NCBI GenBank assembly: GCA_030867875.1
Contig: JAOWCC010000744.1
Location: 930,001 to 994,000, forward strand
From: Actinernus sp. WN-2022
Taxonomy: Eukaryota > Cnidaria > Anthozoa > Actiniaria > Actinernidae
Direction: 5' to 3'
Length of the DNA: 64,000 nucleotides
Shown: one piece after another, positions 5,724-59,950 of the stretch
Numbering within the stretch: position 1 is the stretch's first letter
Layout: every line of letters begins with the position of its first letter
Program-made: the position numbers and the translations under genes
The notes under the pieces: model-generated
What the model saw: the letters and a program-made list of their open reading frames with translations, nothing else
What the model was told of the DNA's origin: nothing
The model's database searches: none

Positions 5724-7796
5724 ACCAAGAGAGCATAAGTAAGAGAGGGAATCTCCAATACGCGTACTTGTGTGATGGTAATGTAAGAATACTGTATACC
5801 AAGAGAGCATAAGTAAGAGAGGGAATCTCCAATACGCGTACTTGTGCTATGATAATGTAAGAATACTGTATACCAAGAGAGCATAAGTAAGAGAGGGAAT
5901 CTCCAATACGCGTACTTGTGCGATGATAATGTAAGAATACTGTATACCAAGAGAGCATAAGTAAGAGAGGGAATCTCCAATACGCGTACTTGTGCGATGG
6001 TAATGTAAGAATACTGTATACCAAGAGAGCATAAGTAAGAGAGGGAATCTCCAATACGCGTACTTGTGCGATGATAATGTAAGAATACTGTATACCAAGA
6101 GAGCATAAGTAAGAGAGGGAATCTCCAATACGCGCACTTGTGCTATGATAATGTAAGAATACTGTATACCAAGAGAGCATAAGTAAGAGAGGGAATCTCC
6201 AATACGCGTACTTGTGCGATGGTAATGTAAGAATAGTGTATACCAAGAGAGCATAAGTAAGAGAGGGAATCTCCAATACGCGTACGTGTGCGATGATAAT
6301 GTAAGAATACTGTATACCAAGAGAGCATAAGTAAGAGAGGGAATCTCCAATACGCGTACTTGTGCGATGATAATGTAAGAATACTGTATACCAAGAGAGC
6401 ATAAGTAAGAGAGGGAATCTCCAATACGCGTACTTGTGCGATGATAATGTAAGAATACTGTATACCAAGAGAGCATAAGTAAGAGAGGGAATCTCCAATA
6501 CGCGCACTTGTGCTATGATAATGTAAGAATACTGTATACCAAGAGAGCATAAGTAAGAGAGGGAATCTCCAATACGCGTACTTGTGCGATGGTAATGTAA
6601 GAATAGTGTATACCAAGAGAGCATAAGTAAGAGAGGGAATCTCCAATACGCGTACGTGTGCGATGATAATGTAAGAATACTGTATACCAAGAGAGCATAA
6701 GTAAGAGAGGGAATCTCCAATACGCGTACTTGTGCGATGATAATGTAAGAATACTGTATACCAAGAGAGCATAAGTAAGAGAGGGAATCTCCAATACGCG
6801 TACTTGTGCGATGATAATGTAAGAATACTGTATACCAAGAGAGCATAAGTAAGAGAGGGAATCTCCAATACGCGCACTTGTGCTATGATAATGTAAGAAT
6901 ACTGTATACCAAGAGAGCATAAGTAAGAGAGGGAATCTCCAATACGCGTACTTGTGCGATGGTAATGTAAGAATAGTGTATACCAAGAGAGCATAAGTAA
7001 GAGAGGGAATCTCCAATACGCGTACGTGTGCGATGGTAATGTAAGAATAGTGTATACCAAGAGAGCATAAGTAAGAGAGGGAATCTCCAATACGCGTACG
7101 TGTGCGATGATAATGTAAGAATACTGTATACCAAGAGAGCATAAGTAAGAGAGGGAATCTCCAATACGCGTACTTGTGCGATGATAATGTAAGAATACTG
7201 TATACCAAGAGAGCATAAGTAAGAGAGGGAATCTCCAATACGCGTACTTGTGCGATGATAATGTAAGAATACTGTATACCAAGAGAGCATAAGTAAGAGA
7301 GGGAATCTCCAATACGCGCACTTGTGCTATGATAATGTAAGAATACTGTATACCAAGAGAGCATAAGTAAGAGAGGGAATCTCCAATACGCGTACTTGTG
7401 CGATGATAATGTAAGAATACTGTATACCAAGAGAGCATAAGTAAGAGAGGGAATCTCCAATACGCGTACTTGTGCGATGATAATGTAAGAATACTGTATA
7501 CCAAGAGAGCATAAGTAAGAGAGGGAATCTCCAATACGCGTACTTGTGCTATGATAATGTAAGAATACTGTATACCAAGAGAGCATAAGTAAGAGAGGGA
7601 CTCTCCAATACGCGTACTTGTGCTATGATAATGTAAGAATACTGTATACCAAGAGAGCATAAGTAAGAGAGGGAATCTCCAATACGCGTACTTCTGCGAT
7701 GATAATGTAAGAATACTGTATACCAAGAGAGCATAAGTAAGAGAGGGAATCTCCAATACGCGTGCTTTTGCGATGGTAATGTCGAATAAAATCTAT
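5724..7796. repeat. 74-bp satellite, 28 units, with a higher-order period
   Basis: The marker ACCAAGAGAGCATAAG recurs from 5724 to 7722 at exact multiples of 74 bp, with no indel in 28 units. The minus strand of the unit has no stop in any frame. Because 74 is not a multiple of 3, one unit is read in all three frames, which produces overlapping open frames of up to 537 codons that are not genes. Diagnostic variants (CGCGCACTTGTGCTATG, and AGTG in place of ACTG) recur together every 5 units (6094, 6464, 6834), then after 6 units (7278). This is a 370-bp higher-order repeat. Confidence 0.95.
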
Positions 7797-9653: not shown

Positions 9654-11428
9654 GACCATGTGTTGCAGGTAGTTGGCTTCGTCATAGCTCCTTTGTCTCC
9701 TCAGTTTGTTGCCCGGTGGTCGACGCCACTTATGCCGCACCGCAAAGACCATTTCAATCCATATATATATATATTGTCTGATAGGTGTTACTGACCATGT
9801 GTCGCAGGTAGTTGGCTTCGTCATAGCTCCTCTGTCTCTTCAGTTTGTTGCCCGGTGGTCGAAGCCACTTATGCCGCACCGCAAAGACCATTTCAATCCA
9901 TATATATATATATTGTCTGATAGGTGTTACTGACCATGTGTCGCAGGTAGTTGGCTTCGTCATAGCTCCTCTGTCTCCTCAGTTTGTTGCCCGGTGGTCG
10001 ACGCCACTTATGCCGCACCGCAAAGACCATTTCAATCCATATATATATATATTGTCTGATAGGTGTTACTGGCCATGTGTCGCAGGTAGTTGGCTTCGTC
10101 ATACCTCCTCTGTCTCCTCAGTTTGTTGCCCGGTGGTCGACGCCACTTATGCCGCACCGCAAAGACCATTTCAATCCATATATATATATATTGTCTGATA
10201 GGTGTTACTGACCATGTGTCGCAGGTAGTTGGCTTCGTCATAGCTCCTTTGTCTCCTCAGTTTGTTGCCCGGTGGTCGACGCCACTTATGCCGCACCGCA
10301 AAGACCATTTCAATCCATATATATATATATTGTCTGATAGGTGTTACTGACCATGTGTCGCAGGTAGTTGGCTTCGTCATAGCTCCTTTGTCTCCTCAGT
10401 TTGTTGCCCGGTGGTCGACGCCACTTATGCCTCACCGCAAAGACCATTTCAATCCATATATATATATATTGTCTGATAGGTGTTACTGACCATGTGTCGC
10501 AGGTAGTTGGCTTCGTCATACCTCCTCTGTCTCCTCAGTTTGTTGCCCGGTGGTCGACGCCACTTATGCCGCACCGCAAAGACCATTTCAATCCATATAT
10601 ATATATATTGTCTGATAGGTTTTACTGACCATGTGTCGCAGGTAGTTGGCTTCGTCATAGCTCCTTTGTCTCCTCAGTTTGTTGCCCGGTGGTCGACGCC
10701 ACTTATGCCTCACCGCAAAGACCATTTCAATCCATATATATATATATTGTCTGATAGGTGTTACTGACCATGTGTCGCAGGTAGTTGGCTTCGTCATACC
10801 TCCTCTGTCTCCTCAGTTTGTTGCCCGGTGGTCGACGCCACTTATGCCGCACCGCAAAGACCATTTCAATCCATATATATATATATTGTCTGATAGGTGT
10901 TACTGGCCATGTGTCGCAGGTAGTTGGCTTCGTCATACCTCCTCTGTCTCCTCAGTTTGTTGCCCGGTGGTCGACGCCACTTATGCCGCACCGCAAAGAC
11001 CATTTCAATCCATATATATATATATTGTCTGATAGGTTTTACTGACCATGTGTCGCAGGTAGTTGGCTTCGTCATAGCTCCTTTGTCTCCTCAGTTTGTT
11101 GCCCGGTGGTCGACGCCACTTATGCCGCACCGCAAAGACCATTTCAATCCATATATATATATATTGTCTGATAGGTGTTACTGACCATGTGTCGCAGGTA
11201 GTTGGCTTCGTCATAGCTCCTCTGTCTCCTCAGTTTGTTGCCCGGTGGTCGACGCCACTTATGCCGCACCGCAAAGACCATTTCAATCCATATATATATA
11301 TATTGTCTGATAGGTGTTACTGACCATGTGTCGCAGGTAGTTGGCTCCGTCATAGCTCCTCTGTCTCCTCAGTTTGTTGCCCTGTGGTCGACGCCACTTA
11401 TGCCGCACCGCAAAGACCATTTCAATCC
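9654..11428. repeat. 139-bp satellite, 13 units
   Basis: GACCATGTG recurs from 9654 to 11322 at exact multiples of 139 bp (12 intervals), and the last unit ends at 11428. Every unit but the last carries an (AT)n run inside CCATATATATATATATTG. The first unit is the most diverged. Variants (GGCC for GACC, CATACCTCC for CATAGCTCC, CCTCACC for CCGCACC) are spread over several units, as expected from unequal exchange. Frames on both strands run 69-117 codons only because the unit has few stops. No gene is implied. Confidence 0.95.
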
Positions 11429-12089
11429 AATTAAACTAACTTAATTATTTTTGTGACCTAAAATTAGCTTTATTTATATTGTATCTTAAGTTATCTCTAT
11501 ACTATTGTTGTTTTATTACCTATTACTCTTATTACAGTTAGCCTAATGATTATTAAGATCTTAAATTCATTATATTCAATATGACTATTATTATAACAAG
11601 TATCCATTCAATACCTTTGTAGTGTGACGATTAATTAGTATCACAGCATGTAACTAGTTGTCCTATTCTACTCATGTATATATGTTTTTTTCTATATTTT
11701 TCCTTTTATTATCTTAAATGTTATTTGTATATAATTTAATCTTATAATATTGCACGTTCACGTTTAAAAGATGTGATACGTGGATAAATAACCTACTATT
11801 GGACGGGTGACTGAATACACGTGAGGAATGAAATGTACGATTTTGCGCTTAATTATTAGAAAGCTGGGAGGAAAAAGTATAGGAGGGTTTGAAGGTTTCG
11901 TCAACCTACATTACCGACGTCAGTGCGCAAAAACGTATTCATGAAACCAAATGACATTTCACATGGTGTCACGAAATATGTTATCCTACAACATACCCGC
12001 GAATGAGGCCAAAATTTTCGTTGAATTTTTTTAATATTTGCATGAATTCAAAATTGGCGCTTTTCGACAAATATTCACAATCGACCTTT
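11429..12089. other. AT-rich spacer, no gene seen
   Basis: Very AT-rich sequence from the end of the satellite to the LINE fragment. No feature was recognised. Confidence 0.5.
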
Positions 12090-22034: not shown

Positions 22035-22187
22035 AATAATTGAGTCGGTATCAAAATAAAGTACCTGTTTATCTAAACAATTTAGCTTATCATACAACAT
22101 TAGTCAGCACTACTAGTTGTAAAACACGCCACATATATATTCGTATTATAGGAGTTATCTACAAACTGATCTATAACTCATTTGTAC

Positions 22188-22470
22188 CATAGTTAATAGA
22201 GTAGAATGGTTATGAAACCCAGCGACCTTCTTTGTTATATGTCTTTGTTAGCTTTTTTCAACCGTGACCCTGCACAAAACACAATAGAAATTCCAATGTG
22301 TTAATCAATCAGCCAATAGAAACGTGTGAGTTCAGTCGTTCAGGGGACGCTAATGAACTATGACCCTGCACAATCTTTTTTCTTGCCCCCTTCCAACATA
22401 AATCGCAGCGACTTTGTTAGCCCCTTTGAAGTTTGCCGGGTTTCATAACCATTCCACTCTATTAACTATG
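22188..22470. mobile_element. 283-bp TIR element with 7-bp target duplication
   Basis: Left end CATAGTTAATAGAGTAGAAT and right end ATTCCACTCTATTAACTATG are inverted, and the TIRs extend through GGTTATGAAACCC/GGGTTTCATAACC. TTTGTAC flanks both ends (22181-22187 and 22471-22477). A GTGACCCTGCACAA / ATGACCCTGCACAA direct repeat sits inside. No coding frame. Confidence 0.85.
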
Positions 22471-26437: not shown

Positions 26438-26439
26438 TT

Positions 26440-27922
26440 GGGCAGCTCTACTAGGTTATAATACCAGTATGGGCAGCACTACTAGGTTATAATACCAGTA
26501 TGGGCAGCACTACTAGGTTATAATACCAGTATGGGCAGCACTACTAGGTTATAATACCAGTATGGGCAGCACTACTTGGTTATAATACCAGTATGGGCAG
26601 CACTACTAGGTTATAATACCAGTATGGGCAGCACTACTAGGTTATAATACCAGTATGGGCAGCACTACTAGGTTATAATACCAGTATGGGCAGCACTACT
26701 AGGTTATAATACCAGTATGGGCAGCACTACTTGGTTATAATACCAGTATGGGCAGCACTACTAGGTTATAATACCAGTATGGGCAGCACTACTTGGTTAT
26801 AATACCAGTATGGGCAGCACTACTAGGTTATAATACCAGTATGGGCAGCACTACTAGGTTATAATACCAGTATGGGCAGCACTACTAGGTTATAATACCA
26901 GTATGGGCAGCACTACTAGGTTATAATACCAGTATGGGCAGCACTACTAGGTTATAATACCAGTATGGGCAGCACTACTAGGTTATAATACCAGTATGGA
27001 CAGCACTACTAGGTTATAATACCAGTATGGGCAGCACTACTAGGTTATAATACCAGTATGGGCAGCACTACTAGGTTATAATACCAGTATGGGCAGCACT
27101 ACTAGGTTATAATACCAGTATGGGCAGCACTACTTGGTTATAATACCAGTATGGGCAGCACTACTTGGTTATAATACCAGTATGGGCAGCACTACTAGGT
27201 TATAATACCAGTATGGGCAGCACTACTAGGTTATAATACCAGTATGGGCAGCACTACTAGGTTATAATACCAGTATGGGCAGCACTACTAGGTTATAATA
27301 CCAGTATGGGCAGCACTACTAGGTTATAATACCAGTATGGGCAGCACTACTAGGTTATAATACCAGTATGGGCAGCACTACTAGGTTATAATACCAGTAT
27401 GGGCAGCACTACTAGGTTATAATACCAGTATGGGCAGCACTACTAGGTTATAATACCAGTATGGGCAGCACTACTAGGTTATAATACCAGTATGGGCAGC
27501 ACTACTAGGTTATAATACCAGTATGGGCAGCACTACTTGGTTATAATACCAGTATGGGCAGCACTACTAGGTTATAATACCAGTATGGGCAGCACTACTA
27601 GGTTATAATACCAGTATGGGCAGCACTACTAGGTTATAATACCAGTATGGGCAGCACTACTAGGTTATAATACCAGTATGGGCAGCACTACTAGGTTATA
27701 ATACCAGTATGGGCAGCACTACTAGGTTAAAATACCAGTATGGGCAGCACTACTAGGTTATAATACCAGTATGGGCAGCACTACTAGGTTATAATACCAG
27801 TATGGGCAGCACTACTAGGTTATAATACCAGTATGGGCAGCACTACTAGGTTATAATACCAGGATGGGCAGCACTACTAGGTTATAATACCAGTATGGGC
27901 AGCACTACTAGGTTATAATACC
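26440..27922. repeat. 31-bp satellite, 48 units with no indel
   Basis: The unit, starting GGGCAGCACTACTAGG and continuing TTATAATACCAGTAT, recurs from 26440 to 27897 at exact multiples of 31 bp. The variants are single substitutions (ACTTGG for ACTAGG in several units, ATGGACA once, AAAATACC once, CCAGGATG once). The first unit joins the right TIR of the neighbouring element directly. Confidence 0.97.
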
Positions 27923-28314
27923 ATGATCACCTCGGTTTTCTTTGTTTGTTCAGGGACATTATTTTTAAAATCTCTAAATTCCCTCATCAACATGCATATT
28001 TCATGTTCTAATTTTCCCTCATTGACATACAAGAAGGAAAATAGAAGGGCATGCATGCAATGGCAAGTTATTAGACCCTAGCAGGGTGAAATGCCTGTCA
28101 ACCCTGTACCCTTAATATTGTATTAGGGGCGTTCAATCAAGTATAATAACAAAGTTCTAGCTGAAAAGCAACTCAACTGCAGCATATTTAAGCAGAGAAA
28201 AACTAAAGTTAATGGCAATTAAAATAATTTAACGAAGTTTGAAACTAAAGTTGCTAATAATGGCCCTACATTGCAAGTTAGTTCCTGTCATCATCATCAT
28301 GATCATTTTAATTG
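27923..28314. other. Spacer with a MITE end remnant
   Basis: Starts with TGATCACCTCGGTTTTCTTTG, which resembles the TIR of the elements at 28.6 and 31.1 kb (TGATCGGCTCGGTTTTC). Otherwise nothing was recognised. An ATCATCATCATGATCAT stretch sits at about 28291. Confidence 0.45.
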
Positions 28315-33134: not shown

Positions 33135-34257
33135 ATGGGGTTCGAAGACCTCCTGAGAGAATTTTCTGCAAAGTTACAGTGTGCCATTTGCGGGGAGGTT
33201 TTTACGAATCCAAAAACTCTCCCGTGCCTACACAATTTTTGCCAACACTGTATCACAAGTTGGTTGGGAACGTGCTAGAAAAACCACCAGCCCTTCACAT
33301 GTCCCGAGTGCCGTTCGGTAGTGGAGCTGCTGAATGGAGATCCATCAAATCTGCGAGCATCATTCTACCTGGCTGGTTTACTGGAGCTGTACACAGCCTT
33401 GGAAACTGCCAGTTCCAGTCAGGAAAGCCCAAGAACCATGTGTGGTAATTGCGAGGAAGCTGTGGTCGTCTGTGCATTTTGTTCTGATTGCAGTGATCTT
33501 CTGTGTGCACAATGCATAGAGCTACTGACACAGAAAAGTCAAAAATACACGAAATCATCGAATCATCCCGCTACGCGAATTCAAGTCGGAAGATGTTCGA
33601 GATTTCCTACAACGACCCATGTACTGTAAGGAAGTTAGCCATGAACACAACCGACTGGAATACTTTTGTAGGTCAAAACATGCCGAAAGTGCGTTTGCCA
33701 AAAGTGTGTGACGCTAACTCACAACACACACGATTTCACAAGCATGGAGCAGGCAGCACAAGAAGCGAAAGCAGCTATGATGGAACAAGCCGAACGCATA
33801 AAGAAGGCAGTTACATATTGTCATACTGTACTGACCAGTTCACAAAACGAGTTGGCTGATACACGAAAAGAATTAGACTTAGCTCGACGCGAAGTGCACG
33901 AGAGCGTTGAAGCTGCAATTCGCAAGTTGAGAGAACACGAGGCGGAAGTGGTGGCAAAGATAGACGAGGTACAAAACAAACAAGAAACCTCGCATAGCGT
34001 CCTCCAGAAAGATTTGGAGCGGAAGATTGGCCAACTAACAAGTTATGTGCAACACGTAGAGGGTATAGTTAATAGAAACCTGAAAACCGAGGTTTTGCAA
34101 ACCCAGTCAACTACTGCTCAGCGTGGACAAGAACTGCTGGTCGCACATGAGAAACAAAGGCCACAACTACGAGAAAGTCCATCAGTGTATTACGAGACGA
34201 CTGAAAACGTTCACGAAGCTCTAAATGTTGGGAAGTTGGTGATTTCAAGCTGTGCAG
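33135..34257 (+). pseudogene. RING/B-box/coiled-coil (TRIM-like) exon, broken
   Basis: From the ATG at 33135 the first 59 codons make a C3HC4 RING: C16-x2-C19, C31-x-H33, C36-x2-C39 and C56-x2-C59. A TAG at 33276-33278 (codon 48) lies inside it without a frame change. The frame continues into a B-box1-like CGNCEEAVVV and CSDCSDLLCAQC. About 4 extra bases near 33525-33530 then shift the frame. A second shift lies in the B-box2 (near 33670), after which CRKCVCQKCVTLTHNTHDF restores the zinc pattern. From 33738 to 34257 the frame is clean and forms a charged coiled coil (EQAAQEAKAAMMEQAER, then REHEAEVVAKIDEVQ). A good donor (CAG|GTAACT) ends the exon at 34257. TRIM proteins are usually ubiquitin ligases; as read, this exon could not make the whole protein. 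Confidence 0.8.
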
Positions 34258-34897
34258 GTAACTAATCTTTTTACCTTGTTCTTGTTTTTGTAGCAAAATA
34301 TCCAACGATTTTAAATTTATTTATTTTATTTATTATAACTTTATAACTCTCCACCGTATAACGTTTCTGTTTTAAAGAAAACTAACAGATATCAATATTT
34401 GAATATTCTACTAAGTTCTTAATATTTTCTATTAATTTAATATTTTGCCTATATTACATGACAACATTTCTGGGTTGATTCGCTAAGAGCAGTGTAGTTC
34501 GAGTATACCAGCGCTAACAGCAATGCACAAAGTTTATGCTGAGATTCTTACGTAAGTGTATCGTAGTAGTATTGGATATTGTGTATTTCTGTCTCATATT
34601 TTTAAATAAAGAAAGGTTAAAATAGGTTAACACTGCTGAAAATTGCTTCGATGTAGTTTCAGTTTTTGTTCGTGCGCTGCCTACCCGCTACATAATGGCA
34701 CTTTCCAACAAAGAGCGCGCGCTCGTAACTTTATGAATGCGCAACTGAATAAACAATGTGCTCCTGCCCTTCCGACTGGAGGAATTTTTGGCAGCCATTG
34801 ATACGATACTGAAGGAAAGATCCGCGCATCATTGATATTGTAGTTTATATGCTTGTTTTTTGTATTCTCCAACATTTCAGCTTCCTTTTTAATTCAG

Positions 34898-37175: not shown

Positions 37176-37352
37176 TACATAGTTATCTAACATGACGTCA
37201 CGCATGTGATTAGCGTTATTTATAAACGGCACAGAAATAGACCAGTTCGCGGTAAATGGAGTGCATGGCACGAAATGCTGACGAAATACAGTGTTTGTAT
37301 GGGATTCGATGGGAATCCGATGCCAAATAAAATCCGTAAAATCGAAACACAG

Positions 37353-37957
37353 TAGATAAATACAATAATAATATTATTGTTAGTGACTCTGGTAATAACA
37401 GGGTTCAAGTGTTTTCAGTAGATGGAGTGTTTATTCGTAGTATTGGTGAGGGGAGAGTTGAGCGTCCTTGTGGAGTATGTGTTTGTAACCAGGGTAATAT
37501 TGTGGTGTGTAGTCGTGGAGATAAGAGAGGGGTAAAGAAGTTTAGTAGAGATGGAGTGTTTATTAGAGAGTTTGGTAACCAATATACAGCCCCATACTCT
37601 ATAACGTACACTAACGGTACATATTTTGTATCGTATGCTGATGAACATTGTATACGTGTGTTTGCCGATGATAATGGACAATTCGTTCGTCAGTTCGGTT
37701 CACATGGAGAAGGTAATGGTCAGTTTAATGGTCCCCGTGGCCTTACAGTGTATAGACACAGTTATCTACTGGTCTGTGACTATAATAATCATCGTGTTCA
37801 GGTGGTAACACAGGAAGGTGAATGTGTGAGTACATTCGGTAGTGTAGGTTCTAATCTTGGTGAGATGTTGTGTCCAGTAGACCTGACAGTTCTCCCTGAT
37901 GGCCGTACTGTGATGGTGATAGAACACAACAACGATCGTGTTCATGTATGGCGTTAG
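37353..37957 (+). CDS. NHL-repeat beta-propeller exon (C-terminal part, intact)
   Basis: A CAG at 37350-37352 gives a possible acceptor, and the frame is open to the TAG at 37955-37957 (about 200 residues). Five NHL-type repeats can be read. The first is partial (NNIIVSDSGNNRVQVFS). Blades with PCGVCVCNQGNIVVCS, APYSITYTNGTYFVSY, GPRGLTVYRHSYLLVCDYNNHRVQVV and CPVDLTVLPDGRTVMVIEHNNDRVHVW follow. The N-R-V-Q-V / H-R-V-Q-V signatures are typical. NHL propellers bind RNA or protein and form the C-terminus of TRIM2/3/71-type proteins. That fits the RING/B-box exon 3 kb upstream on the same strand. The start at 37353 is weak, because the frame is closed by a TAA at 37337 and repeat sequence abuts it. 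There is no frameshift or stop inside, unlike in the upstream exon. Confidence 0.75.
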
Positions 37958-43599: not shown

Positions 43600-46500
43600 G
43601 CTAAGGATTATGACCATGCAGCTTGCAGCGATACAACCCAGCCAGAACTAAGAGTACATGTACTAAACGGACTATGACCAGCATGCAGCAATACAATTAA
43701 CCCAGCCAGAACTAAGGGTACTAACTGGACTAAGGACTAGGACCAGCATGCAGCGATACAACCCAGCCAGAACTAAGGGTACATGTACTAAACGGACTAT
43801 GACCAGCATGCAGCAATACAATTAACCCAGCCAGAACTAAGGGTACTAACTGGACTAAGGACTATGACCAGCATGCAGCGATACAACCCAGCCAGAACTA
43901 AGGGTACATGTACTAAATGGACTTTGACCAGCATGCAGCAATACAATTAACCCAACCAGAACTAAGGGTACTAACTGGACTAAGGACTAGGACCAGCATG
44001 CAGCAATACAACCCAGCCAGAACTAAGGGTACATGTACCAAACGGACTATGACCAGCATGCAGCAATACAATTAACCCAGCCAGAACTAAGGGTACTAAC
44101 TGGACTAAGGACTAGGACCAGCATGCAGCGATACAACCCAGCCAGAACTAAGGGTACATGTACTAACCGGACTAAGGACTATGATCAGCATGCAGCGATA
44201 CAACCCAGCCAGAACTAAGGGTACATGTACTAACCGGACTAAGGACTATGATCAGCATGCAGCGATACAACCCGGGGATACAACCCAGCCAGAACTAAGG
44301 GGCTTAACCAGACTAAGGACTATGACTAGCATACAGTGATACAACTCTGCTAGAACTAAGGGACTTAACCAGATTAAGGACTATGACTAGCATACAGTGA
44401 TACAACCCCGCTAGAACTAAGGGGCTTAACCAGACTAATTAGGACTATGACTAGCATACAGTGATACAACCCTGCTAGAACTAAGGGGCTTAACCAGACT
44501 AAGGACTATGACTAGCATCCAGTGATACAACCCTGCTAGAACTAAGGGGCTTAACCAGACTAAGGACTGTGACTAGCATACAGTGATACAACCCTGCTAG
44601 AACTAAGGGGGCTTAACCAGACTAAGGTAGCATACAGTGATACATTACCCTGCTAGAACTAAGGGGCTTAACCAGACTAAGGACTATGACTAGCATACAG
44701 TGATACAACCCTGCTAGAACTAAGGGGCTTAACCAGACTAATATAAGGACTATGACTAGCATACAGTGATACAACCCTGCTAGAACTAAGGGGACCAACC
44801 GGACTAAGGACTATGACTAGCATACAGCGATACAACCCAGCCAGAACTAAGGGTACAGGTACATGTACTAAACGGACTATGACCAGCATGCAGCAATACA
44901 ATTAACCCAGCCAGAACTAAGGGTACTAACTGGACTAAGGACTATGACCAGCATGCAGCGATACAACCCAGCCAGAACTAAGGGTACATGTACTAACTAA
45001 GGGTACAGGTACATGTACTAAATGGACTAAGACCAGCATGCAGCAATACAATTAACCCAGCCAGAACTAAGGGTACTAACTGGACTAAGGACTATGACCA
45101 GCATACAGCAATACAACGCAGCCAGAAGTAAGGGTACATGTACTAAATGGACTATGACCAGCATGCAGCAATACAATTAACCCAGCCAGAACTAAGGGTA
45201 CTAACTGGACTAAGGACTATGACCAGCATACAGCAATACAACGCAGCCAGAAGTAAGGGTACATGTACTAAATGGACTATGACCAGCATGCAGCAATACA
45301 ATTAACCCAGCCAGAACTAAGGGTACTAACTGGACTAAGGACTATGACCAGCATGCAGCGACACAACCCAGCCAGAACTAAGGGCACATGTACTAAATGG
45401 ACTACATGTATGACCAGACTAAGGACTATGACCAGCATGCAGCAATACAATTAACCCAGCCAGAACTAAGGGTACATGTACTAACCGGACTAAGGACTAT
45501 GATCACCATGCAGCGATACAACCCAGCCAGAACTAAGGGTACATGTACTAAACGGACTATGACCAGCATGCAGCAATACAATTAACCCAGCCAGAACTAA
45601 GGGTACTAACTGGACTAAGGACTATGACCAGCATGCAGCGATACAACCCAGCCAGAACTAAGGGTACATGTACTAACCGGACTAAGGACTATGATCACCA
45701 TGCAGCGATACAACCCAGCCAGAACTAAGGGGCTTTACCAGACTAAGGACTATGACTATAGCATACAGTGATACAACTCTGCTAGAACTAAGGGACTTAA
45801 CCAGACTAAGGAATATGACTAGCATACAGTGATACAACCCTGCTAGAACTAAGGGGCTTAACCAGACTAAGGACTACATGTATGACTAGCATACAGTGAT
45901 ACAACCATGCTAGAACTAATGGGCTTAACCAGACTAAGGACTATGACTAGCATACAGTGATACAACCCTGCTAGAACTAAGGGGCTTTAAACCAGACTAA
46001 GGACTATGACTAGCATACAGTGATACAACCCAGCCAGAACTTAAAGGGGCTTAACCAGACTAAGGACTATGACTATAGCATACAGTGATACAACTCTGCT
46101 AGAACTAATGGGCTTAACCAGACTAAGGACTATGACTAGCATACAGTGATACAACCCTGCTAGAACTAAGGGGCTTAACCAGACTAAGGACTGTGACTAG
46201 CATACAGTGATACAACCCTGCTAGAACTAAGGGGCTTAACCAGACTAAGGACTATGACTAGCATACAGTGATACAACCCTGCTAGAACTAAGGGGCTTAA
46301 CCAGACTAAGGACTATGACTAGCATACAGTGATACAACCCTGCTAGAACTACATGTAAGGGGCTTAACCAGACTAAGGACTATGACTAGCATACAGTGAT
46401 ACAACCCTGCTAGAACTAAGGGGACCTGAACCAGACTAAGGACTATGACTAGCATACTGTACAGTGATACAACCCTGCTAGAATTAAGGAGCTTAACCAG

Positions 46501-46815
46501 ACTAAGGACTATGACTAGCATACAGTGATACATTACCCTGCTAGAACTAAGGGGCTTAACCAGACTAACCTTGGACTATGACTAACATACAGTGATACAA
46601 CCCTGCTAGAACTAAGGGGACCAACCGGACTAAGGAATACAAATGACATGTAGCAATACAACCCTGCTAGAACTAAGGAGACTAACTGGACTAAGGACTA
46701 TGACTATAGCATAGAATGATACAATGCAACCCCAGTAGAACTATGGGGTCGACTAACCAGACTAAGGAATACAAATGGAATGCATGTAGCAATACAACCC
46801 AGCTAGAACTACTGT
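43600..46815. repeat. Satellite of about 61 bp in alternating subfamily blocks
   Basis: About 3.2 kb. Subfamily A reads CCAGCATGCAGCRATACAA...CCAGCCAGAACTAAGGGTAC, with ACATGTACTAA and often ATTAA added. Subfamily B reads CTAGCATACAGTGATACAA, CCCTGCTAGAACTAAGGGGC, TTAACCAGACTAAGGACTATGA and has a regular 61-bp period (for example 44451 to 44512). Blocks run A (43.6-44.27), B (44.28-44.82), A (44.82-45.72), B (45.73-46.6). Diverged units then follow to 46.8 kb. Frames here are artefacts. Confidence 0.93.
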
Positions 46816-49086: not shown

Positions 49087-49267
49087 TTAGAAGATGGCGG
49101 CTTTCTACCGCTCTCTACCTAATTCTAAAAATAAGAGTTAGACTTCTCTACAAATCATGCCTCCCAAGTCTAAAACATCCGATGAAGGCCTAACAGCGAT
49201 GAATGAGCGACTCTCGTCAATTGAGACCTTGTTAAAGAATATTAGCAACTCACTAAACGAGAAACTC
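49087..49267 (+). pseudogene. LINE 5' end and ORF1 N-terminal part (split gene, first half)
   Basis: TTAGAAGATGGCGGC at 49087 resembles the 5' UTR start of L1-like LINEs. The ATG at 49157 opens a frame of 37 codons (starting MPPKSKTSDE, with a heptad-like NERLSSIETLLKNISNSLNE) up to the TIR of the 5.1-kb element at 49268. The second half starts at 54410 in the matching frame once the insert and the 2-bp duplication are discounted. LINE ORF1 proteins bind the element RNA and trimerise by coiled coils. Confidence 0.7.
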
Positions 49268-49284
49268 CCCAGGCACCAAAAGCC

Positions 49285-49720
49285 AGGTAAAAAGCTTGGT
49301 AAGCCTGGTTAACCCCGGTATAACCAGGCTTTCAGTGCTTTGAACCGGGCTTACCTCAAAAGCCTGGCAAGGAAAAAGGCCGGAAAGCCCGGAAATTCCT
49401 GCCTTTCCCGGAAAGGTTGGTACATGAAATCCAGAATAGCTTGGTAAACCCGGAATCATGTTTTAGGTACCAAGTTTAGTCCTGGCTTTTCTGGAAAGGC
49501 TGGTATGAAAAAGCCTGGAAAAGCCTGGAAAGCTTGGCATCTGATTCAATAAGCTGTGAATTCCAAGCTTTCCTGGAAAGGCTGGTATGAAAAGCCTGGA
49601 AAAAGCCAGGAAAGCTTGGCATGTTATTCAATAAGCCTTGAATTCCAAGCTTTCCTGGACTATGGCAGGAGTCAATAACAAAAGTCAAGAAAAGCTTGGA
49701 AGATTTGGCTTAACTGCAAT
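49285..49720. repeat. Left subterminal repeats of the 5.1-kb element
   Basis: Dense copies of AAGCCTGGAA, AAAGCCTGG and CTTTCCTGGAAAGGCTGGTA, and of CCGGAAAGCCCGG-like words, in both orientations. One unit of about 110 bp (GCTTTCCTGGAAAGGCTGGT to AGCTTGGCATxTxATTCAATAA) occurs twice (about 49490 and about 49567). Frames on the minus strand (49253-49459 and 49476-49688) are products of these repeats. Confidence 0.85.
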
Positions 49721-49899
49721 GAAAACTACAAAATTAACCATTAGTTGTCTGATTTTATGATAAGAACCTTTCATAATAATATTATTTTATTGTTTGTCAG
49801 GCCTAATTATTTAAATATGAATGGATAATTATATTAAATTGCAATGTTCAATCACTATTAGATTACTTAAATATAGGAGCTTTAAATTGTTAAATATTA

Positions 49900-50315
49900 G
49901 GGAACCTCGGCTGAAAAACAATGTTTGCTCTCAAGGGTTTGTTATGGATGCCTAAGTCTGTTTCTGTGTTTGTCTCCAGTAAATTGTACACTAGATGTCA
50001 TTTATGCACCGATTTTCCTCTCGATAAAACTCATTTGAATTTCCTGTGTGCCGCCATCTTGGATATCATGACGTCACAGTGTTGCCCTATTGTCGCATAA
50101 CAAAAGAGCTATTGTTTTCTGACAATAAGGCAACACTGTGACGTCATAAAATTCAAGATGGCAGCGCGCAGGAAATTCAAATGAGTTTTATCGAGAGGAA
50201 AATCAGTGCATAAATGACAACTAGTGTACAATTTACTGGAGACAAACACAGAAACAGACTTAGGCATGTATAACAAACACTTGAGAGCAAACATCGTTTT
50301 TGAGCCGAGGTTCCC
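49900..50315. mobile_element. 416-bp palindromic element nested in the 5.1-kb element
   Basis: GGGAACCTCGGCT at the left and AGCCGAGGTTCCC at the right are perfect inverses. The arms run about 200 bp each (for example CCTAAGTCTGTTTCTGTGTT against AACACAGAAACAGACTTAGG) around a short centre at about 50105. The right flank is TTTAA and the left is ATTA, so a TTAA-type insertion, like that at 23781-24227, is likely but degenerate on the left. Confidence 0.9.
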
Positions 50316-50668
50316 TTTAAATATTTAGCGAAAACTACATGTATTATGCATTTAAGTTACATACCATTAAATATTTTGAGACTGTTGACTGAGAAACCAT
50401 AATTTGTTAACAACAAGAGAGCTTCAAATATCACTCAGTCACATAAAGGTTTCAGAAATGACAGATATATACAATTTGGAAAACAGTGTTTCAGGTTATA
50501 ATCAACAACTGGTTTGGAGATCTCCAGTTACAAATTAAGCACAATTTAAGATTTTCTTGTAATATGTGTTCTACATGTACATTTAAATTGTTTTCACAAA
50601 CTTTCCTAACCCTAATTTCGGGGCTCAGCTGATTTGATGTTTACCAAAACAGAATTAGAAAGTTGTAG

Positions 50669-51027
50669 TGTGCGAAGCCGCCACACCAATAAAGCTGTGG
50701 GGTGGCGTGAGCCCCTAGACCCTGCCAAGTTGGGTTGGATGGCAAGTAAGTTAATTCTTAACTCTGCTAATCTGAGTAATAAATAATTATTCTTGTCTTT
50801 GGGGTTGATATTAGTTCTGGCATTTAATTGAAAGTGCCTAGTGAAACTTAGATAAGCTCAAATTATTTGGCTAATGTTATGTGGATATTTTTGGTTTCCT
50901 TGTAGAAAAAATTATCAAGAAATACACACAGGCAAACGACTCCAAGATTGTGGCCACTCTTGGTGACTTCTTGAAAAACAACAGGAAGCGTGCCTTGAAG
51001 CATTTTAGAACCTACTATTGCAAATAA
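50669..51027 (+). CDS. Two-exon open frame inside the 5.1-kb element (3' part of an unknown gene)
   Basis: A candidate exon at 50669-50745 follows an acceptor (GTTGTAG) and ends at a near-consensus donor, CAA|GTAAGT. The second exon, 50906-51027, follows TTTCCTTGTAG and ends in TAA at 51025-51027. Exon 1 ends in phase 1 and exon 2 resumes in phase 1, so the reading frame joins cleanly across the 160-bp intron. The product (about 65 residues) starts near RSRHTNKAVGWREPLDPAKL and ends LKHFRTYYCK. It is basic, with aromatic residues, and has no domain I recognise. More 5' exons would have to lie to the left, but 49.9-50.3 kb is occupied by the palindrome. It may be the end of a transposase or a captured host gene. 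Confidence 0.4.
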
Positions 51028-51039
51028 GCTCTTCCTTTC

Positions 51040-51200
51040 AGGGCTTGGAATTACTAGGAATTTAAGGTTTTAATGAGAGTGTAAAAGCTTGGAATAGTTT
51101 GGAGTTCCTAGGAATTCCTAACTGAATTCCATCTTGGCTTATTAGCTATTTTGTGAAGGTGTTATTTTCTAGGCTTGGAATTCCTAAGAGTTCCTTGGAA
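51040..51200. repeat. Inner repeat cluster, left
   Basis: Several copies of CTTGGAATTCCTAGGAATT-like words, for example GGCTTGGAATTACTAGGAAT, GGAGTTCCTAGGAATTCC and GGCTTGGAATTCCTAAGAGT. The matching right cluster is at 53110-53460. The word resembles the outer AAGCCTGGAAATTCC repeats. Confidence 0.75.
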
Positions 51201-51749
51201 TTAATGAAGGTTTTCTACTAATTCTTAAGTCACTGAGTCACATTGATTTTAGAAGACTGTTCAACTTCACTAATATAAAGTCTTCCAGTGCCCTGCTAGA
51301 CAGAGATTCTTAAATCCCTTAGCTTCCTCTGAGCAATTAATTTTAGAGTAAAGTTATAAGGATACTTCAATAATTGTCACCAATTGACTAAGATCATGCA
51401 CTCACATATTTCTCAATACTTTATTAGAAAGCTAACATTACAGGGAATATTAAGATCGTTTTCATGAGAAATTTTAAAACTTATACATGTAATTATTATT
51501 GTAAACTTGTTGCCATAATTTGTTGACTGACTGCTACAGAAGAAAAGCTAATATCACGATATTTTCCTGGTTATTTTCACTATTACTCACCGATTTGACC
51601 TTCCCAGTGTTTAAATGAAGCAAAGTATTCATCCAAATCTTTGAAAATGTGTTGTTGTTGTAAAGAAATTTGAACAAAACTTAGATTTCGGCCTTGCCAA
51701 AGTCTCTGCCATGTTTCCACTTTAAACCGAGTAAAGACTAGAACCAAGT

Positions 51750-52045
51750 TGATCCATATTTCGTAATAGCTTGCACCTGATTGGCTGGAGGAGTTGTAAG
51801 GCCTCCAGGGATTGGCTGAAGTTTAAATTAGGCGCCATTAGGTGAGGTGAGACTTGTTCATTTCACTGTGTTCACTCGTGCGTTTGTTGGAGGTTTTACA
51901 GCTCGTTCAAAGGGTAAATTCAACAGTATTTCACGAAAGAGAATGCTTAGATGGAAAGATTATAATAACTGCTGCCAACTGTGAGGTAATATCAGGGCAT
52001 ATCAGTTCTAGATGAGATGAATTCCTGGAGAGATCTTTGTAAAAG
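51750..52045 (+). promoter_or_regulatory. Possible promoter and first exon between the inner repeat clusters
   Basis: Two inverted CCAAT boxes (GATTGGCTGG at about 51779 and GGATTGGCTGA at about 51811) precede a less AT-rich stretch. A strong splice donor, AAAAG|GTGAGC, lies at 52045/52046. This looks like a promoter with a mostly untranslated first exon. I could not find a downstream exon with a matching phase, so the call is weak. Confidence 0.25.
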
Positions 52046-52797
52046 GTGAGCATGTTTTACTTTTATTAAATCCGTTAAATGACACTGAAAGTTCTGTCAG
52101 ACACGCATTTCACACAAAACAATTTAAGTTTACGGTTTTTCTAGTAGTTCAGTTCGCTAATTTGTCATTTAATTGTGCATTTTAAAGTAATGTTCTCGAA
52201 TAGTCATTTCAAGAAACTATTCTTTAAAGCTAATATGAAGATGTGGTACATGCATTCAATTTGAGGTCCCCGCGTGTTACGGTTTTGTTATTTTACTTTA
52301 TATTGATCAGACCATGAGTTGCTCTCAATAAATTAAACGGCACTTGAAAACTTTGCAGTGAGAACTTCTCGATCTGTAGAGCTTTAAGTACATATTTTGG
52401 GCTATGAATTGAAGGATTAATGTGAGCTTTAATCACAGTCTCTGCTAGTATAAGTGTAGAGCACGATTTGAATAATTATTTTGTTTGTATATGCATACAT
52501 GTATGTGTAGTGATATATTACTCCTAAATATATTAGCTCATTTATCCTAACCATTGGTCAATGTGTTTAAATCAGCGATCAAGGCATTGAGCAACAATTT
52601 CTACTTTGAAATACCCATTCCAAAAGCAATTTAACCAGTTAATTATTAACAAATATTTATTGGACAAGATTCGAAGCACAAGCGATTCCTTTGTAATTTC
52701 CGGTTGTCACGCCACACCGACATGTAAAATCCTTTATCTAATGAAGTTGTAATTCAAATTTTATTGATTAATAAATTAATTATATTTATATTTTTAG

Positions 52798-52907
52798 GCC
52801 TTCAAGTTGCAGATCAGAAGCTTTTCAAATCTAAAAACTCTCAAAGAAAGCTGAACACTGGAAAACGTCCACTGCCAATTACAGGGTACCTACAAAAAAT
52901 AATGTAG
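52798..52907 (+). other. Open segment after a good splice acceptor
   Basis: TATATTTTTAG ends at 52797. From 52800 the frame is open for 35 codons (LQVADQKLFKSKNSQRKLNT, then GKRPLPITGYLQKIM) and stops at 52905-52907. Composition is lysine-rich and plausible for coding, but the phase does not fit an ATG-started first exon at 52017. Not recognised. Confidence 0.2.
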
Positions 52908-53109
52908 TGAGTGAAGTCACAATCAGTCTTGTTAATACATGTAACTCTGTATAAAATTAGACTGCACAGCCTTTATAAGTTTAATGATTAAACTAAAAGA
53001 AGGAATGGCAAGAAATAAGCGTTGACTCATTATTGATATCTATTAGTTTACTGCCAGACCCTAACCTCTATTCTTACCCTTTGGTAATTGGCAAAAATAT
53101 ACCTTTTAA

Positions 53110-53460
53110 TGTTTTTAGATTCCCAGATATTAGATTTCCCAGATATTCCAAGCAAAATTCCTAGGAATTCCCAGATATTCCAAGAAATTCATATAAATTC
53201 CCAGATATTCCTTGAATCCAAAGGTTTGCTGGCCTGTAGTTATTGATCTTAAGAATTCCTAGGAATTCCTAGCAATTTTATTCCCAGCTATTCCAAACTC
53301 AACCAAAGCTTGGAATTCCTAGGAATTCCATGTTCCAATTACCGTGAAAATTGACAGCTATTCCTAAGAATTCCTAGGCTTTCCCAGGAATTCCTAGGAA
53401 TAAAATCCTAGGAATTCTTAGCAAATTCTTAGGAATTCCTAGGAATTCTAAGCTTAAATA
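53110..53460. repeat. Inner repeat cluster, right
   Basis: Ten or so copies of TTCCTAGGAATTCC/CCCAGATATTCC-type words, including the palindrome GGAATTCCTAGGAATTCC. Together with 51040-51200 this frames about 1.9 kb of sequence inside the 5.1-kb element. Confidence 0.8.
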
Positions 53461-54014
53461 TTTCGCAGGGGAATTATGTTGCCAAGACTGTATATAGTTA
53501 TGAAATGTAAGTAAACAGTTATTCCATTGTGAAAAGCAATGGTATAAATTCAATTCTTTCATCCATTTATTATATCCAATTTTGGAGTTTTTTTTTTTTT
53601 TTTTTAAGATGGACTGACAGCTGATTCTGTAAGTTTAATACTGCTGTGTTTTATTTACAATCTACATGTATAATAATTATAATGTCAGTGCACATACATG
53701 TATGTTTATAAATATTTTGATACAAAGTTTATTGTCAAAATCATTATCATTAAAAATCAATAACTGATCCCACTGAGTTTAATGATTTGACTAATTTAAA
53801 GCTTATAGGTCCATTGTGAAAAAATAATCCTTATATTTTAGTGACTGGACTGACAAACACATCACACTTCGTGGACTCGAAAGGAGCTATAATTTTTTTC
53901 CAGGCAACAAGAGATTTACATGTATGTGATCTCAGCTTACCGTAAGCACTGGGAATTTTTGTTTGTTATAAAAGTTTAATTTATTAGTACCATTATTTTT
54001 AATTGGTTGATTCC

Positions 54015-54390
54015 AGAATTTCCAGGCTTTAATCCTGGAATTTAACCAGGGTTACCCTGGAATTTCCGGGCTTACCCCATAATTTAACCGGGTTTACCCC
54101 GGAATTTCTGGGCTTACCCCGGAATTTAACCGGGCTTACCCCGGAATTTCCAGGCTTACCCTGGAATTTCCAGGCTTACCCTGGAATTTCTGAGCTTTCC
54201 CTGGAATTCCGGGGTTACCCCAGAATTTAGGTGGGCTAAAACCAGATTTGCCTTTACCAAGCTTTCTGGGCTTTCCGGGGTTACCCCAGAATATTCCTCA
54301 TTGGGTAAACCCGGTGAAAGCCCGGAATGTTTACCAGGTAACCCCGGTATCTTAACCAAGCTTTAACCCCGGAAAACCCCGGAATTTCCA
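54015..54390. repeat. Right subterminal repeats of the 5.1-kb element
   Basis: CCAGGCTTACCCTGGAATTT, GGGCTTACCCCGGAATTT and AACCGGGTTTACCCC-like words in tandem. They are the inverse counterpart of the left cluster (CCTGG and CCGG cores, GGAAATTCC). The two frames read here are artefacts. Confidence 0.85.
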
Positions 54391-54409
54391 GGCTTTTGGT
54401 GCCTGGGTC

Positions 54410-55033
54410 GACAATCTGAACTCCTAAATGAAAGCCTTGATCAAATCACAAGAGCACATTAACAACGAATTCGAAAAATTCAAGTCAATCACAGATAACG
54501 TTCTCAAGCAAAATTCTAACTTAACCAAAGAAAATGAAGCCTTGAGAATAAAAATGTCTATACAAGAGAAAGAAACAAGAAGAATGTTCCAGGCTTTAGA
54601 CGATCAGGAACAATATGGCAGACGGTCGATGGTGGAAATTTCTGGTATCCCCCGTACGGCAGAAGAAAATACTGAAGCTATGGTGATACAGCTCTGTTAA
54701 CCGGCTACACGTCGAAGTCCAAGCCGAAGATATCGAAGCAGCACACCGGTTATCTGCGAAGGATACAGCAAATATAATCGTAAAGTTTGTCAACAGAAAA
54801 ACGAGGGACATGGTACATAAAGCAAGATCCCAACTGTACCGCAAGACAACCCATGATCTCGGCCTTAAGTTCAAGAAAGGGCTCCAGCAAAAATCTATAT
54901 AAATGAAAGTCTGACAAAATCCAGAAAAGAACTATTTGCAAAGGCACGCATGTGTAAAAGAGAAAGGGAGTACAAGTACCTATGGTCTAGAAATGGATCG
55001 ATTTTATTAAGGAAAACCGAAAACTCCCAGTGA
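54410..55033 (+). pseudogene. LINE ORF1, second half
   Basis: From 54410 the frame continues the ORF1 of 49157-49267. After a TAA at 54425-54427 it runs as a coiled coil (EFEKFKSITDNVLKQ, then KENEALRIKMSIQEKETRR), then YGRRSMVEISGIP. This is the start of the nucleic-acid-binding part seen in many cnidarian LINE ORF1 proteins. A one-base insertion near 54698 shifts the frame into EAAHRLSAKDTANIIVKFV. A second shift near 54895 leads to INESLTKSRKELFAKAR, KYLWSRNGSILLRK, and a TGA at 55031-55033. No ORF2 follows; satellite-like sequence of the 43.6-46.8 kb type abuts at 55034. Confidence 0.8.
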
Positions 55034-58439: not shown

Positions 58440-59950
58440 GTAATTAGAGCCAATCGCGGGAGCAACTAAACCAAAATGAGCCAATCACGAACGGACGTAT
58501 GATAAAACTAAAACCAAAGTAATTAGAGCCAATCACGGGAGCAACTAAACCACAATGAGCCAATCACGAACGGACGTATGATAAAACTAAAACCAAGTAA
58601 TTAGAGCCAATCACGGGAGCAACTAAACCAAAATGAGCCAATCACGGGAGCAACTAAACCACAATGAGCCAATCACGAACGGACGTCTGATAAAACTAAA
58701 ACCAAGTAATTAGAGCCAATCACGGGAGCAACTAAACCAAAATGAGCCAATCACGAACGGACGTATGATAAAACTAAAACCAAAGTAATTAGAGCCAATC
58801 GAGGGAGCAAGTAAACCGTAATGAGCCAATCACGAACGGACGTATGATAAAACTAAAACCAAAGTAATTAGAGCCAATCACGGGAGCAACTAAACCACAA
58901 TGAGCCAATCACGAACGGACGTATGATAAAACTAAAACCAAGTAATTAGAGCCAATCACGGGAGCAACTAAACCAAAATGAGCCAATCACGAACGGACGT
59001 ATGATAAAACTAAAACCAAAGTAATTAGAGCCAATCGAGGGAGCAAGTAAACCGTAATGAGCCAATCACGAACGGACGTATGATAAAACTAAAACCAAAG
59101 TAATTAGAGCCAATCACGGGAGCAACTAAACCACAATGAGCCAATCACGAACGGACGTCTGATAAAACTAAAACCAAGTAATTAGAGCCAATCACGGGAG
59201 CAACTAAACCACAATGAGCCAATCACGAACGGACGTCTGATAAAACTAAAACCAAAGTAATTAGAGGCAATCACGGGAGCAACTAAACCACAATGAGCCA
59301 ATCACGAACGGACGTATGATAAAACTAAAACCAAAGTAATTAGAGCCAATCACGGGAGCAACTAAACCACAATGAGCCAATCACGAACGGACGTCTGATA
59401 AAACTAAAACCAAAGTAATTAGAGCCAATCACGGGAGCAACTAAACCACAATGAGCCAATCACGAACGGACGTATGATAAAACTAAAACCAAAGTAATTA
59501 GAGCCAATCACGGGAGCAACTAAACCACAATGAGCCAATCACGAACGGACGTATGATAAAACTAAAACCAAAGTAATTAGAGCCAATCACGGGAGCAACT
59601 AAACCACAATGAGCCAATCACGAACGGACGTATGATAAAACTAAAACCAAAGTAATTAGAGCCAATCACGGGAGCAACTAAACCACAATGAGCCAATCAC
59701 GAACGAACGTATGATAAAACTAAACCAAGTAATTAGAGCCAATCACGGGAGCAACTAAACCACAATGAGCCAATCACGAACGAACGTATGATAAAACTAA
59801 AACCAAAGTAATTAGAGCCAATCACGGGAGCAACTAAACCGCAATGAGCCACTCACGAACGGACGTCTGATAAAACTAAAACCAAAGTAATTAGAGCCAA
59901 TCACGGGAGCAACTAAACCGCAATGAGCCAATCACGAACGGACGTATGAT
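58440..59950. repeat. 78/79-bp tandem repeat, about 19 units
   Basis: Unit: GTAATTAGAGCCAATCACGG, GAGCAACTAAACCACAATGA, GCCAATCACGAACGGACGTA and TGATAAAACTAAAACCAAA. The period is 79 bp, or 78 bp where CCAAAGT reads CCAAGT. Each unit has two AGCCAATCA (CCAAT-box) motifs on the same strand. Variants such as CGAGGGAGCAAGTAAACCGT recur every few units (58799, 59035), so blocks of units were copied together. Confidence 0.93.

Follow-up and report, generated by a model that had tools for sequence, protein, structure and literature searches.

A recently mobile DNA transposon family with CCC..GGG tips in Actinernus sp. WN-2022, probably non-autonomous and working like CACTA

In a stretch of 64,000 nucleotides from the actiniarian Actinernus sp. 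WN-2022 (assembly GCA_030867875.1, contig JAOWCC010000744.1, positions 930,001 to 994,000; hereafter the window), an element of 5,140 bases at 49268-54407, a nested foldback included, interrupts the first open reading frame (ORF1) of a long interspersed nuclear element (LINE). A sequence-only reading of the window had taken the element for a transposon with terminal inverted repeats of unrecognised family, a candidate for a new family or a non-autonomous derivative of one. The question raised by this locus is whether such a family exists and, if it does, to which of the known transposon groups it is to be compared and how its members move. The transposon family is real, precisely bounded and recently mobile, and the element is very probably a non-autonomous DNA transposon which depends for its movement on an enzyme supplied in trans; we regard it as representing a new non-autonomous family, probably working like CACTA.

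The two tips of the element proved to be inverted repeats perfect over 17/17 bp, as had been described, and are 91% complementary over 23 bp. Tips of the CCC..GGG type are present in 9/9 aligned copies of the subfamily to which the window copy belongs (subfamily A), as well as in those copies of a second subfamily, B, which were read. When the 1.39-Gb genome was searched with the tip, as proposed in the sequence-only reading, 583 matches with at most two mismatches were obtained (297 and 286 on the two strands), versus 34 (14 and 20) for the control, the tip reversed and non-complemented. A partial list of 217 exact tip sites was compiled from three flank-specific genome-wide searches (95, 45 and 43 sites) and from 34 TT-flanked sites drawn from 100 listed places of the genome tip search; in this list, 70 of the 115 plus-strand tips have a minus-strand tip 0.5-12 kb downstream, with about 0.0009 expected per site. 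Two other pairs of tips, either very short derivatives or rearranged ends, were encountered: facing exact tips spanning 58 bases in all (G000:C1380:36056240-36056297) and a pair 1.6 kb apart (G000:C1398:14770038-14771625).

A query composed of the 150 bases on either side of the element, joined with a single copy of the TC, gave five matches, two of them being the halves of the window locus. The best of the others is a gap-free empty site (C813:49461550-49461849, 99% over 300/300 bases), and further matches lie at C1398:6237584-6237851 (91% over query bases 32-300) and C1398:6885478-6885712 (79% over query bases 32-296); the search for empty sites, also proposed beforehand, was thus successful. 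The host was correctly recognised as a LINE ORF1, the frame joined across the insertion being similar to ORF1 of another LINE in L044 (42% over 119 amino acids, E 7e-34). Clean restoration of the host reading frame, which had been claimed as well, holds in so far as the frame runs through the junction, but the ORF is not intact: an in-frame stop occupies the sixth codon past the junction, and the host ORF of this LINE copy is therefore broken independently of the insertion.

Reading of the flanks confirmed TC on both sides of the window copy, while the idea that TC is diagnostic was not supported: the family duplicates 2 bp which vary from site to site and are mostly A/T, and the TC of the window copy is not special. 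This rule derives from 27 outer-end pairs, four of which repeat an already counted site in duplicated segments, so that 23 distinct sites remain; the sample is non-random, its places being those printed by the tip search, with long pairs picked deliberately and two right ends carrying one or two tip mismatches. Identical 2-bp flanks were found at 15 of the 23 sites (TC, CA, AT three times, AA three times, TA four times and TT three times), 13 of these 15 consisting of A/T only, whereas random re-pairing of the left and right flanks produced on average 3.9 and at most 10 identical pairs in 5,000 trials. A 3-bp match (TTG) occurs at one site, and a four-base match at none of the 23.

Collecting full copies, another of the proposed checks, yielded nine aligned members of subfamily A with the same ends (the window copy, L016, L018, L019, L027, L028, L045, L046 and L047), from which a column majority was derived. 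L027 and L047 are copies of one insertion site on contig C685, and the nine copies therefore represent eight sites. Divergence from the column majority, gaps excluded, is 0.4-0.9% in seven of the nine. The copies are thus near-identical at different target sites, which indicates recent movement; since most of them are nearly identical, the enzyme was active in this genome not long ago and is possibly active still. Between subfamily B (for example, L013, L014, L021 and L023) and subfamily A, the similarity is confined to the tips and to about 130 bases of the right end, at 85-86%.

Many relatives possess two right ends. Inner right ends were listed 21 times, two of these being repeats of a place already seen, and correspond to 19 places (L013:4772 and L021:1443 among them), at all of which the inner right end of subfamily B is followed by the same AATGATTA sequence. 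The outer right end was read at 16 places; it lies beyond the inner one by 0.9-1.5 kb at 14 of them, and by 3.0 and 12.3 kb in L011 and C575, respectively. In the simplest reading, an ancestor transposed using its left end and the farther right end and captured the flanking DNA, the old end now being inside, and later copies would use the outer right end. Such paired right ends point to a transposon which gained neighbouring DNA via a distant copy of its own end.

Behind the tips, both ends of the element are densely occupied by AAGCYNGG, a motif which also overlaps the tip in its inner part. Subfamily A copies carry 15-17 such motifs in the left 450 bases, 6-9 in the right 450 bases and 1-3 elsewhere, with at most 0.1 expected per 450-base end after base shuffling, and in the three B copies counted the numbers are 13 on the left, 19-24 on the right and 7-12 between. 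The large subterminal repeat fields noticed in the window copy are hence well founded (Table 1), and their layout is as expected of putative binding sites for a transposase or a helper. Farther inside, CCTAGGAATT palindromes form two fields, one on each side of the centre of the element, with 25 matches (at most one mismatch, both strands) versus 0.16 expected for the whole of its inner 2.5 kb.

As to the interior, the foldback is a later nested insertion, and the longest stop-to-stop frame measures 86 amino acids in the window element and 131 in seven other copies. Two predicted exons with consensus splice sites form one joined open frame, whose peptide resembles PF10523 (BEN) at E 0.02 and 15.5 bits, under the curated cut-off of 23.2; this was the sole Pfam family found for it at E <= 10. 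The spliced peptide had no match among solved structures, and a protein search returned one candidate homologue and none at E <= 1, while the second exon had at least 51 matches in the genome. In five of the eight other A copies, an insertion of 290-293 bases interrupts this exon at window place 50921, and an intact BEN-like exon is therefore not needed for spread; the 28 bases by which L027 and L047 are longer at this place read as a remnant of the 290-base insertion. The interrupting sequence is a short dispersed repeat found also in the window at 22186-22470 (97% over 148 bases to L049). Second-exon matches of the same score were seen at two places on G000:C790. This pair and that on C685 (L027 and L047) are segmental duplications which carried the transposon along.

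The ends, duplications, empty site, copy number and near-identity across sites are observed, and cut-and-paste movement, supply of the enzyme in trans and binding of the repeats are what we infer. A transposase provided by a relative would bind the tip and, behind it, the repeated AAGCYNGG motifs, would pair both ends and would then excise the element; the ends would be joined to target strands staggered by 2 bp, and repair would leave the 2-bp duplication with its A/T bias. Dense subterminal repeats at both ends are a trait of CACTA transposons. The mode of action may well be CACTA/CMC-like, which we propose tentatively and not as a claim of membership: the family was not filed as CACTA because its tips were tested and do not fit.

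Among the alternatives, the one that survives best is that the family is a true member of CACTA/EnSpm (CMC) with tips diverged from CA..TG, a possible reading, albeit a doubtful one. Duplications of CMC elements are 2-4 bp long (PMC4482050), and the CMCT relatives mostly end in CA..TG with duplications of 2-5 bp (PMC12730594). The likeness to this group (CACTA/EnSpm, Mirage, Chapaev, Plavaka and kin) consists in the 2-bp and the single 3-bp duplications and in short tips backed by dense subterminal repeats, and the genome contains many genes for Transposase_21, the enzyme type of autonomous CMC elements (150 hits scored among 264 candidates). The tips, on the other hand, are CCC..GGG instead of CA..TG, and the 217 listed tips have none of the 150 scored hits within 31 kb, both lists being partial.

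That we are dealing with an undescribed superfamily, which would be characterised by tips of the form CCC..GGG, by 2-bp duplications of variable but A/T-rich sequence and by subterminal sites in many copies, is unlikely. Its tips and duplications do fall outside the published rules of ISL2EU, piggyBac and CMCT, and a literature text search found the tip letters in five papers, none of which uses the word transposon. ISL2EU elements, of the PHIS superfamily, encode a DDE/THAP transposase and a YqaJ protein. ISL2EU likewise makes a 2-bp duplication but duplicates AT only, in the target A/AT/T (PMC4482050), and was excluded because of this rule, AT making up 3/15 duplications here. The piggyBac elements have similar, CC..GG, ends and were nevertheless excluded because of their 4-bp duplications (PMC10045372), with no four-base match in the present sample. 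Tc1/mariner differs in its TA duplication, TA being found here in 4/15. In having subfamilies with common ends and different interiors, the family is reminiscent of the Ds-like non-autonomous subfamilies of maize Ac, which are, however, hAT elements (PMC3260210). What speaks against a superfamily of its own is that no enzyme of the family was recognised in the copies examined and that the family may be a named one in Repbase, where non-autonomous families are assigned according to the length of the duplication and the first 11 bases of the tip (PMC4455052). Of the two possibilities named in the sequence-only reading, a new family or a non-autonomous derivative, what stands is that the family is real and that the copies examined contain no recognised transposase. 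A more elaborate version is quite improbable: a recently active animal superfamily of its own, with the same tips and variable 2-bp duplications, whose parent would have encoded a transposase together with a BEN-type DNA-binding helper for one repeat field, the BEN-like exons and the CCTAGGAATT fields being remnants of that helper.

The long transposase-bearing relative proposed as a further check did not emerge. Five tip-to-tip intervals of 17-34 kb were read, and the foreign blocks which they hold are taken as nested insertions and not as the autonomous form. In four of these intervals, the foreign block is bordered on either side by at least 200 bases of ordinary subfamily B sequence, which in L040/L042 and L036/L037 overlaps by 7-8 bases across the block, as expected of a separate insertion; in the C280 interval, on one side only the tip was seen. 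Three of the intervals (L029/L030, L032-L035 and L040/L041) contain Polinton-type genes, a label resting on ORF reading and domain matches: an integrase core in L030 and L041, a Pox_A32-like match in L033 just under the cut-off, and large ORFs, two without a family and one with an endonuclease match below the cut-off. In the fourth, a Helitron-like element with the domains Helitron_like_N, PIF1 and OTU is nested in a B copy (L036:1975-7506 and L037:2808-4238); the fifth is occupied by a LINE which in turn contains a DUF6589 element (L043; 26.7 bits, cut-off 27). It is accordingly most improbable that the 5-kb element arose by deletion from a Polinton-like element, a reading for which the genes in three of the five intervals would argue and which is opposed by the ordinary B sequence flanking the foreign blocks, by the different content of the fourth and fifth intervals and by the lack of four-base matches at the 23 sites, Polintons making duplications of 6 bp (PMC10045372). 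The view of the inverted tips as chance or local rearrangement, for which the number and pairing of tip sites leave practically no room, is refuted by the empty site.

The ORFs of 525 and 1113 amino acids in L043 were considered as the transposase pair of the family and rejected, as they sit in another element inside the LINE in a B copy. That element (L043:3035-9620) has its own inverted repeats of more than 400 bases, and the longer of its ORFs is the one near DUF6589; the 525-residue protein has 153 relatives at E <= 0.001, and the named ones among the 120 listed are all cnidarian (Exaiptasia, Porites, Nematostella and Acropora). Samples of 360 bases from the middles of four tip-to-tip intervals of 7.7-10.2 kb contained a piece of a miniature inverted-repeat transposable element (L049), a reverse-transcriptase-like frame (L050, by eye), a tandem-like sequence (L052, by eye) and a stretch without match (L051), the latter being taken as another dispersed repeat because of its at least 40 genomic matches.

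Several observations weigh against a recently mobile non-autonomous transposon. L016 and L019 differ from the column majority by 2.3% and 3.8%, respectively, and are older copies; no duplication is present at 6/23 sites, and the single 3-bp match is accompanied by one of 6 bp (TACCAT). No transposase with these tips was found in the interior frames, in the five long intervals or in the Transposase_21 comparison. In favour of a non-autonomous element, Pfam assigned none of the tested sequences (15 frames from the interior of A and B copies, and a single spliced peptide) to a transposase family; this set covers part of the interior frames, and spliced genes with short exons could escape it. The outcome of the analysis is a well-bounded new family and not a new mechanism, and its exact tips, together with the 2-bp rule, provide a handle for finding the moving enzyme.

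Table 1. Features of the transposon and its insertion site, in window coordinates
Feature	Position	Strand	Basis
Whole element, subfamily A	49268..54407	+	tips, 2-bp duplication, empty site, 8 more aligned copies with same ends
Left 17-bp terminal inverted repeat	49268..49284	+	perfect match with right tip; 23 bp at 91%
Right 17-bp terminal inverted repeat	54391..54407	-	perfect match with left tip; 23 bp at 91%
Left TC duplication copy	49266..49267		flank reading
Right TC duplication copy	54408..54409		flank reading
Host LINE ORF1, upstream part, resumes at 54410	49157..49267	+	joined frame 42% identical, 119 amino acids, to L044 LINE ORF1
Left subterminal repeat field, 17 AAGCYNGG in first 450 bases	49268..49717		0.1 expected after base shuffling
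Nested 418-base foldback, two 208-base arms	49899..50316		arms 91% complementary; absent in 8/8 other aligned copies
9-bp duplication around foldback	49890-49898 and 50317-50325		by eye from junctions and three empty copies
BEN-like domain remnant, predicted first exon	50616..50745	+	open frame from 50616; splice donor after 50745
BEN-like domain remnant, predicted second exon, ends in stop codon	50906..51027	+	open frame across predicted splice
Inner field of CCTAGGAATT-type palindromes, left part	51049..51202		6/25 matches at <=1 mismatch, both strands
Inner field of CCTAGGAATT-type palindromes, right part	53134..53458		19/25 matches; direct-repeat family D1
Right subterminal repeat field, 9 AAGCYNGG in last 450 bases	53958..54407		0.1 expected after base shuffling
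20/42-base tandem array within right subterminal field	54016-54228		tandem-repeat scan

Outside the element, the window contains large tandem arrays, given here with their periods, at 5724-7782 (74 bases), 9654-11429 (139 bases), 26439-27923 (31 bases), 43619-46724 (about 61-128 bases) and 58635-59950 (79 bases). The ORFs at 33672-34265 and 37340-37957 presumably resemble a coiled-coil/B-box and an NHL-repeat protein, respectively.

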